A stretch of DNA of 64,000 bases from Cyanobacteria bacterium RI_101 (GTDB lineage: Bacteria; Cyanobacteriota; Cyanobacteriia; Cyanobacteriales; Microcystaceae), in contig WGLZ01000039.1 in the NCBI GenBank assembly GCA_016471375.1, forward strand, positions 1 to 64,000. The letters run 5' to 3'. A program made the translations under genes and the position numbers. Shown one piece after another: positions 39,828-48,325 of this stretch (position 1 is its first letter; each line of letters begins with the position of its first letter). The notes beneath the pieces were generated by a model. It was not told the DNA's origin. It worked only from the letters and a program-made list of their open reading frames with translations, and did no database searches.

Positions 39828-40925
39828 TCAATTGTTGTTCGCGTTGGCCAACTCCGCTAGGCGCTCCTGCTGATCCTGAGAAATACAGGATTGGATCATG
39901 TCGTCAATGTCCCCCTCCAGCGCCGTGGCGAGGACAAAGTTTTTACCGAGACGGTGGTCGGTCACCCGGTTGTCTTTGTAATTATAGGTGCGAATTTTCT
40001 CCGAGCGGGCGCCGGTGCCCACCTGGGAGCGCCGCATGGAACTGACGGCCTGTTGTTGCTCCTGAAGTTTAAGGTCGTAGAGTTTAGCCCGAAGAATCTG
40101 CATGGCCCGTTCTCGGTTTTGCAATTGGGAGCGCTCCTCAGTGCAAAAAATACGAATCCCCGTGGGTTTGTGAAACAGATCCACCGCCGTTTCCACCTTG
40201 TTGACGTTTTGCCCCCCGGCGCCGCCGGAACGGGCGGTGGTTAGTTCAATCTCTTTGGGATCAATATGAATTTCCACATCGTCCACCTCCGGCATAATGG
40301 CCACCGTGGCGGTGGAGGTATGGACGCGGCCCCCCGCTTCCGTCACCGGCACCCGTTGCACCCGATGGACGCCCGCCTCGAACTTAAGCTGGCTGTAAAC
40401 TCGGTCGCCCTTGATTTCCAAAATCGCTTCCTTAAAGCCCCCCATATCCGCCAGGGACTCGCTCAGTAAACTTACCTTCCAGCCCTGAGTCTCGGCGTAG
40501 CGAGAATACATTCTCACCAAATCTCCCGCCCAAATGCTAGCCTCGTCGCCGCCGGTGCCGGCCCGCACTTCCAACATGATATTTTTGTCGTCGTTGGGGT
40601 CTCGGGGCAGGAGCAAAACCGTTAATTCCTGCTCTAAATTTACCAACTTTTGTTCTAATTCCGCCACTTCTAGGCTTGCCATTTCCCGCATTTCCGGGTC
40701 GGCGCCGGCTTCCTTGAGAATTTGGCGCGCGTCCCGCAGATCGTCCTGAGCCTTTTTCCAAGCCTCGTAGGTCGTCACGGTTTCCTCTAGGGAAGAGCGA
40801 GCTTTCGCCACCCGTTGCAGTTCTTCGGGATTAGTCGCAATGTCGGGATCGGCCAATTGGCGGGTCAACTCCGCAAAGGTTTGCTCCACCGACTGCAATT
40901 TCTCCAAAAGATAGGGTTCAGCCAT
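39828..40925 (-). CDS. prfA: Peptide chain release factor 1
   Basis: RF1 reads UAA and UAG and triggers peptide release. In 365 residues: the codon-reading PxT motif PVT (193-195, [10 protein letters not shown]), and the catalytic GGQ at 237-239 ([13 protein letters not shown]). There is no in-frame stop or frameshift, as expected for RF1. It is upstream of bvdR and probably co-transcribed. Confidence 0.97.
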
Positions 40926-47342: not shown

Positions 47343-47447
47343 GGGCGACGGGGAGGGAGACGAATCCTTAGTTTACCAAAACGCCGTCTCTGGCTTCAAT
47401 GACCGCCGCCGTTGGCGGAGTGAGTTTGCTCAATTCGTCAAGCCCTA

Positions 47448-47476
47448 TTGACAAAACTTTACATTTTTGTTACATT
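47448..47476 (+). promoter_or_regulatory. Strong sigma-70-type promoter
   Basis: TTGACA at 47448-47453, a spacer of exactly 17 bases, and TACATT at 47471-47476; a second -10-like TACAAT at 47482-47487 follows. This is one of the best consensus promoters in the window. It points rightward at a non-coding stretch that ends in a terminator-like hairpin at 47601-47625. Confidence 0.7.
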
Positions 47477-47482
47477 AAGTTT

Positions 47483-47625
47483 ACAATTAAGGCGATAGAG
47501 AATCCTGACCGCCACGAAAACGCTTTCCCGAAGGGGAGTCGGCGCCGTAGTGACCTAGGGTTTTCAGTACCTTCCATTGACATTGAGTTCTCCTAGATAG
47601 GCTCCGGTTCCGCCGGGGCTTTTTT
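47483..47625 (+). ncRNA. Candidate small RNA upstream of the ccm operon
   Basis: Between a consensus promoter (47448-47476) and a hairpin with a T-run (47601-47625) lies a stretch of about 140 bases with no convincing gene; a 65-codon frame there lacks a ribosome site and any family. The segment has internal pairing potential (CTTTCCCGAAGGGGAG) and an exposed TTCTCCTAG near the 3' end, which could pair with ribosome binding sites. No known cyanobacterial sRNA family (Yfr1 or Yfr2 signatures) was recognised. The boundaries are estimates. Confidence 0.5.
47601..47625 (+). terminator. Rho-independent terminator of the candidate small RNA
   Basis: GCTCCGG (47601-47607), loop TTCCG, CCGGGGC (47613-47619, one G-U pair), then six T at 47620-47625. 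Confidence 0.75.
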
Positions 47626-48013
47626 ATTGACCGACGGCGGAGAGCGCCGGAGTCAGAAGAGAGCGAGCGCTTCTCTAGGGCTAGAATACTTTTTCGCCTT
47701 GTCAAGAACAAAAGAACGATGAAGAGCGATTAAGCGCCGTTAACTATTCCATCAAAGAATATGATGATTTTTTATATTGTCAAAGGGCCCCCGGTTCCCT
47801 ATGCTTCTTATAGAGTGATAACTTTAGCGGCTTGCCTAAGTCTTTTTCGGTTTGTCTCTGCCCCAGCTCCCGTCAAACGGCGCCGGTCGCCTTGGGATCT
47901 CCTGGAACAGAATAATAAAACTGTACAGAAAACCTTATTCACTCTTTTCCGGGACTCTCCTCCCCCATCCTGAATTAATCTAGCTTATCGCCTAAGCGAG
48001 GAACTTTAAACCT
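47626..48013. other. 388-base spacer before the ccm operon
   Basis: No gene of quality was seen; a 70-codon frame at 47761-47973 has no domain or ribosome site and is rejected. The region must hold the ccm promoter, but no -35/-10 pair stands out. GAGGAACTTTAAACC precedes the ccmK2 ATG. Confidence 0.4.
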
Positions 48014-48325
48014 ATGTCAATCGCAGTTGGAATGATCGAAACCAAGGGCTTTCCCGCCGTTGTGGAAGCCGCGGACGCCATGGTCAAAGCGGCCCGGGTC
48101 ACCCTGGTGGGTTACGAAAAAATCGGTAGCGGTCGGGTCACCGTTATTGTCCGGGGCGACGTCTCCGAAGTGCAGGCCTCCGTCTCCGCCGGGATCGAAG
48201 CGGCGAATCGAGTGAACGGGGGGGAAGTCCTCTCCACCCACATCATCGCTCGCCCCCACGAAAACCTGGAGTATGTGCTCCCCATTCGCTACATCGAAGA
48301 AGTGGAACAGTTCCGCACTTACTAG
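48014..48325 (+). CDS. ccmK2: Carboxysome shell hexamer protein CcmK2
   Basis: A 103-residue BMC-domain protein that forms the hexagonal tiles of the beta-carboxysome shell. Seen: [37 protein letters not shown] with the pore loop, and [13 protein letters not shown]. The length and EQFRTY ending fit CcmK2; the next gene is the longer CcmK1. It opens the ccmK2-K1-L-M-N operon. A long stretch of its DNA is almost identical to ccmK1, suggesting gene conversion. Confidence 0.96.

Follow-up and report, generated by a model that had tools for sequence, protein, structure and literature searches.

A predicted small RNA beside ccm genes in a Synechocystis-genus cyanobacterium belongs, by sequence, to the PsrR1 family

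Results

The locus and its transcription unit

We analysed a window of 64 kb, by which we mean the whole stretch of DNA of 64,000 nucleotides. At the locus studied here, a short unit on the forward strand has as its neighbours a methyltransferase gene, which is on the opposite strand, and a downstream group of two genes with a BMC domain (ccmK), one gene of the CcmL family and one ccmM-like gene, as assigned by Pfam. In the ccmM-like gene Pfam finds RuBisCO small-chain and hexapeptide repeats, a combination that we take to correspond to the name ccmM. The first ccmK gene starts at 48014, and 388 bases separate it from the T run that ends the unit, in agreement with the original prediction of a distance of about 400 bases to a carboxysome operon. 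The features of the unit are listed in Table 1.

Table 1. Features of the psrR1 locus in the window
Feature	Position	Strand	Basis
-35 box, TTGACA	47448-47453	+	sequence
Spacer between -35 and -10 boxes	17 bases	+	sequence
-10 box, TACATT	47471-47476	+	sequence
psrR1 core promoter	47448..47476	+	TTGACAAA (47448-47455) same in 7/7 of alignment A1
Putative tandem RpaB/HLR1-type half-sites, core promoter	47448..47487	+	consensus as given in a passage of PMC13421787
Half-site TTGACAAA, one mismatch, possible fourth	47448-47455	+	consensus comparison
Exact half-site TTTACATT	47458-47465	+	consensus comparison
Exact half-site GTTACATT	47469-47476	+	consensus comparison
Exact half-site TTTACAAT	47480-47487	+	consensus comparison
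Predicted PsrR1 transcript, ~143 nt	47483..47625	+	start inferred from -10 box, few bases uncertain
RF02701 (PsrR1) match	47547..47623	+	model positions 1-79, 50.1 bits
Pairing block CTTCCATTGACATTGAGTTCTCCTAGATA	47571..47599	+	identity in 7/52 loci; predicted pairing
TTCTCCTAG	47588-47596	+	sequence
Intrinsic terminator: GC-rich hairpin 47599-47621, T6 47620-47625	47599..47625	+	sequence, family model

The promoter, the roughly 140 non-coding bases and the hairpin with six T residues, which had been described from the letters alone, were all recovered, and these elements bear out the idea of a free-standing small RNA, as far as sequence can tell. Within the predicted transcript of 143 nt no open reading frame starting with ATG, GTG or TTG reaches 8 codons. 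This bears on the possibility that the region is a short protein-coding gene, for which a frame of 65 codons (47399-47596) that crosses it might speak. That frame, on the other hand, opens 49 bases ahead of the -35 box, and the upstream half of the RNA shows insertions and deletions among relatives. A conserved short protein had been named at the outset as one of the findings that would tell against a small RNA. We rejected the coding alternative, to which we give hardly any credence.

The predicted fold has a 5' domain and the terminator, with ACAUUGAGUUCUCC unpaired between them. The original prediction had the whole of TTCTCCTAG open; this holds for ACAUUGAGUUCUCC, whereas the UAGA that follows it, which includes the last UAG of the longer motif, forms base pairs at the base of the terminator stem. 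The global stability of the fold is unremarkable (z = -1.68; 11 of 200 shuffles were equally stable). We also see that the 5' half of the RNA (47490-47560 in the window) is longer than, and unlike, that of the congeners and contains a predicted GC-rich hairpin.

When the same rule was applied to all genomes of the genus, the predicted transcript was 143 nt long in the window, 137 nt in G001 and 132 nt in each of G002-G004, the last value agreeing with the 131 nt published for PCC 6803. The window RNA, with a putative promoter and terminator of its own and no open reading frame, would be somewhat longer than the PsrR1 class of about 130 nt. In the part of PMC2662882 that deals with this RNA, the PCC 6803 start is placed 55 nt after fabF in a spacer of 206 nt. 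This start could not be transferred to G003, where it would land upstream of the -10 box; perhaps the mismatch stems from the spacer lengths, 206 nt as published and 233 nt between the mechanically called open reading frames.

Assignment to a known family

An Rfam scan of the 64 kb window returned three matches, of which two are tRNAs. The third is RF02701 (PsrR1, also called SyR1), which spans the entire model, scores 50.1 bits where the gathering score is 42 (E = 2.1e-6) and is the sole match to this family that we found in the window genome. The CAUUGACAUUGAGUUCUCCUA core, followed by the terminator hairpin and the U run, is present as well. The RNA at 47547-47623 is, judging from this match, PsrR1; the family has already been described, and the notion of a new, unannotated small RNA was not upheld. 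Two other Rfam candidates were discarded: sroD (RF00370) reached 19.1 bits where the cut-off is 50, with a weak overlap mainly at the terminator hairpin that we took to be chance, and a narK match in this stretch, reported at E up to 1, was far under its cut-off.

The score of 50.1 bits is the lowest for PsrR1 in the genus, the other four genomes having 60.2-71.4 bits. On our reading of the alignment, the first ~25 model positions hold mismatches and the terminator hairpin differs, in keeping with the low score.

It is the E value of 2.1e-6 over the 64 kb window that places the unit above chance. Between 46500 and 48700, both strands included, we counted 4 promoter-like sites where 0.8 were expected from shuffles, and 3 terminator-like sites where 3.5 were expected. 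The hairpin pattern by itself is therefore not above chance, and we rejected the terminator count as independent support. One could argue from this count that transcription from 47448 passes the hairpin into ccmK and that the unit is a leader of the ccm operon, all the more as the ccm genes lie on the same strand and are the next large genes downstream. However, the hairpin and the T run belong to the conserved family model, and the gene after psrR1 has the opposite orientation in G002-G004 and is an unrelated one in G001. We consider a ccm leader extremely improbable.

Since G004 (Synechocystis salina LEGE 00031) carries the same genus label as the window genome, the window comes from the genus in which PsrR1 was discovered. 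For PCC 6803, the relevant passage of PMC2662882 describes SyR1 as an RNA of about 130 nt from the fabF-hoxH spacer, validated by Northern blot. Both SyR1 primer sequences printed in that part of the paper occur exactly in L005 (G003) and L006 (G004), which ties these two loci to the Northern-proven gene. A passage in the review PMC6202907 gives 131 nt for PCC 6803 PsrR1 and lists psaL, psaJ, chlN and cpcA as its targets, while high-light induction and control by RpaB are mentioned in sections of the reviews PMC12850537 and PMC13421787. Strong induction by high light is also reported, in a portion of PMC6091082, for a homologue in Synechococcus elongatus UTEX 2973.

Conservation and distribution

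PsrR1 was found in all five genomes of the window's genus. In a search of 38 genomes of relatives, the window's included, at least 20 had a match with E no higher than 0.001 and at least 18 were over the cut-off, the five of the genus among them. In a sample of the phylum (386 genomes) the corresponding numbers were at least 50 and at least 46; both searches scored a capped number of first-look candidates, and the phylum search also used stricter filters by which weak matches may be lost, so that the numbers of carriers are lower bounds.

The pairing block of 29 bases (47571-47599) occurs unchanged in 7 of 52 whole-genome psrR1 loci, namely those of all five members of the genus, of G008 (Snowella) and of G009, and it varies in other genera. 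Shorter segments are shared more widely: the core of 21 bases, CATTGACATTGAGTTCTCCTA, by 12/52 loci, the inner TTGAGTTCTCCTA by 29/52, and TTCTCC by 49/52. In alignment A1, which consists of the window and six relatives, GTCAAG (47437-47442) and TTGACAAA (47448-47455) are invariant. The invariance of the block in A1 is not independent of the count above, because the seven aligned loci are exactly those that hold it. The 5' half of the RNA is poorly conserved, with insertions and deletions among relatives. Four loci (L019, L020, L037 and L050) were unoriented; L019 was kept as it was in an alignment of 16 sequences, and no count depends on it.

Many genomes have two to five PsrR1 matches, among them those of genus g7 (G010, G018, G253, G255, G271, G330 and G375) and several of family f18. 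In five of these seven g7 genomes (G010, G018, G253, G255 and G375) the two copies share a contig, on opposite strands and separated by about 8 to 11 kb. Loci of g7 such as L007 have an insertion, GATTTGC, in the core. In L031-L034, from family f18, the core reads CATTTGGACTTCTCC in place of CATTGAGTTCTCC, and the target sites there may be shifted too.

Half-sites in the promoter

According to a section of the review PMC13421787, RpaB recognises the HLR1 motif KTTACAWW-N2-KTTACAWW, with a spacer of 2, and represses when the motif lies at -38 to +23. We compared the psrR1 promoter with this consensus. In the window, the spacers between successive half-sites are 2, 3 and 3 bases, and the three exact half-sites start 11 bases apart. 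Relative to the predicted start at 47483 they extend from about -25 to +5 and cover both the -10 box and the start. The two exact pairs are the only ones in the window at spacer 2 or 3, and an exact pair was seen in none of 2000 shuffles of 47343-48013. When up to 2 mismatches were allowed at spacer 3, the same two pairs and no others were found in the window, where 0.74 were expected. The exact pairs have spacer 3, compared with 2 in the published HLR1.

The half-site sample comprised 17 of the 52 whole-genome loci, with L019, L020, L037 and L050 outside it. Among the 16 upstream regions other than the window's, the best pair had 0 mismatches in 1, 1 mismatch in 6 and 2 mismatches in 9, and 0 to 20 of 300 shuffles were equally good. 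For the four congeners the best pair had 2 mismatches, with 1 to 5 of 300 shuffles equally good. An RpaB-type element is thus likely at the psrR1 promoter, where RpaB would be expected to bind. As judged by the motif, the array in the window appears nearer to the RpaB consensus than those of the congeners, and its predicted position agrees with low-light repression by RpaB, despite a spacer of 3 instead of 2.

Predicted targets

We calculated interaction energies as the energy of the duplex plus the cost of opening both RNAs, using leaders from -80 to +40. A total of 62 leaders were ranked: five photosynthesis genes, ccmK1 and ccmK2, and a background of 55 mechanically called open reading frames of the window, which probably include some non-genes; psaJ was treated outside the 62. 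The psaL leader came first (-15.6 kcal/mol), cpcA third (-11.7) and chlN fourth (-10.7), while ccmK2 was 7th (-9.5) and ccmK1 12th (-7.6). The second place was taken by the reading frame 39828-40925 on the minus strand (-12.4, site within the first codons), which has no known link to PsrR1 and yet outranks cpcA and chlN. Two further photosynthesis genes, psbB (42nd of 62) and psaF (43rd), are unsupported as targets in the window genome.

For psaJ, we predict an almost continuous duplex of 26 nt across the ribosome-binding site and the first codons (-13.3 kcal/mol). When the RNA of each genome was paired with its own leaders, the top-scoring site overlapped the ribosome-binding region for psaL, psaJ and chlN alike in 5/5 genomes. 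This is in line with the earlier suggestion that the open segment could pair with ribosome-binding sites; the TTCTCC segment is predicted to pair with such sites. For cpcA, the site is found 25-48 bases before the start in 5/5 genomes (32-48 in the window genome). The predicted psaJ pairing extends to the third codon (ATGGAAGGT) in the leaders of the window genome (L121, G000) and of G001 (L120), a longer reach than in G002-G004.

As a control, the small RNA was dinucleotide-shuffled 40 times and paired with seven leaders of the window genome. Energies as low or lower were reached by 0 shuffles for psaL, 1 for psaJ, 2 for chlN and 3 for cpcA, and by 2 for ccmK2, 8 for ccmKx and 13 for ccmK1. 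In these predictions only psaL stands clearly above the shuffles by itself, with chlN and cpcA moderately better than them. The weight of the computed pairings lies in their agreement with the four published targets psaL, psaJ, chlN and cpcA, for which predicted pairing is strong in the case of psaL and moderate for the others.

The carboxysome genes as neighbours and as targets

The closeness to the ccm genes had led to the suggestion of a link to carbon regulation, and one may go further and assume a new small RNA dedicated to the control of the carboxysome and carbon concentration, placed beside ccm as its regulator. We searched the surroundings of 57 psrR1 loci (52 with flanks of about 1.5 kb, and five stretches of 8 kb from genomes already in the set) for ccmK1, ccmK2, ccmL and the methyltransferase gene, using tblastn with E up to 1e-5, and found them near psrR1 in 1/57, the window's own. 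In G001-G003 psrR1 and ccmK are far apart, and in G004 they are on different contigs. The suggestion drawn from proximity is not sustained by these arrangements.

By comparison with the published fabF-hoxH place, the neighbours of psrR1 in G002-G004 are presumably a beta-ketoacyl synthase gene on one side and, on the other, a hydrogenase large-subunit gene in opposite orientation. G001 has it in a different place with an unrelated gene downstream. The fabF-hoxH spacer, the usual but not defining location of PsrR1, is not where the window copy lies, and other neighbours are also seen in the congener G001 and in three other genera (G006, G009 and G013). The spacer before ccmK1 (47627-48013) has promoter-like sites near 47756-47805, both on the forward and on the reverse strand.

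Some of the pairing results would favour a role in carbon regulation. A passage in the review PMC4390856 has one ccmK gene among the candidate targets of PsrR1. The ccmK1 leaders of G002-G004 contain TCTAGGAGA, with predicted pairing of -9.9 to -10.8 kcal/mol; over the ccmK1, ccmK2 and ccmKx leaders of these genomes the range is -9.9 to -13.8 kcal/mol, and for the ccmKy leader of G001 we obtained -14.5 kcal/mol, all as plain energies, the shuffle control being confined to the window genome. In the window genome, 2/40 shuffles were as low for ccmK2. Against this, ccmKy of G002-G004 reaches a plain energy of only -4.3 to -6.4 kcal/mol, and ccmK1 (13/40) and ccmKx (8/40) are within the range of the shuffles in the window genome. 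The ccmK2 site there is 53-69 bases ahead of the start, and the RNA pairs with it through its unconserved 5' half; in G003 and G004 the ccmKx sites likewise involve the 5' half. Moreover, Rfam identifies the RNA as PsrR1. Since the arrangement is unshared and ccmK1 pairs no better than expected by chance, we rejected a carbon-control RNA argued from proximity and regard a dedicated regulator of this kind as very improbable. The position of psrR1 beside ccm looks like a local coincidence. A link to carbon through pairing in trans, independent of adjacency, is possible within the genus, and the computed pairing with ccmK1, ccmK2 and ccmKx is weaker in the window genome than in G002-G004.

Discussion

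We are highly confident that the unit is the psrR1 gene of a cyanobacterium of the genus Synechocystis, a gene that would be repressed by RpaB in low light and expressed in high light. Family membership, the sequences of promoter and terminator, conservation and predicted pairing were established in this analysis. In low light, RpaB bound to tandem half-sites of the TTTACA type over the core promoter would silence psrR1. In high light RpaB would depart, and psrR1 would be transcribed into a non-coding RNA, about 143 nt long, that terminates at the hairpin and T6. PsrR1 is regarded as a regulator that lowers light-harvesting and photosystem I proteins when light is strong. For light induction, control by RpaB and repression of targets we infer from the work on PCC 6803, by way of the reviews.

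The window RNA shares with PsrR1/SyR1 of PCC 6803 the pairing block, the terminator and the length class, the predicted pairing with psaL, psaJ, chlN and cpcA and, judged from the congeners G002-G004, the promoter frame TTGACA-17-TAnnnT. It differs in that it adjoins ccm rather than lying in the fabF-hoxH spacer. The predicted 143 nt differ from the 132 nt of G002-G004, and the half-sites are nearer to the RpaB consensus than those of the congeners, with one extra repeat. The PsrR1 of Synechococcus elongatus UTEX 2973, a homologue by the naming used in the pertinent part of PMC6091082, has 131 nt and is strongly induced by high light.

The ccm adjacency, the up to four tandem half-sites and the psaJ pairing, longer than in G002-G004, raise the question whether psrR1 in this lineage has stronger silencing in low light, shifted priorities among its targets and perhaps a coupled control of ccm. 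We consider such a specialised variant improbable. The locus is an ordinary yet well-supported member of the PsrR1 family, whose individual traits are its genomic place, the longer 5' half and the more perfect array of half-sites.

In summary, an apparent unknown has been settled as a known regulator, and a diverged congener copy has been added to the family. In the comparison, the 29-base pairing block and the terminator emerge as the parts kept in the genus, and the 5' half and the genomic place as those that drift; psrR1 of the window is a natural variant of a promoter that is thought to be controlled by RpaB.
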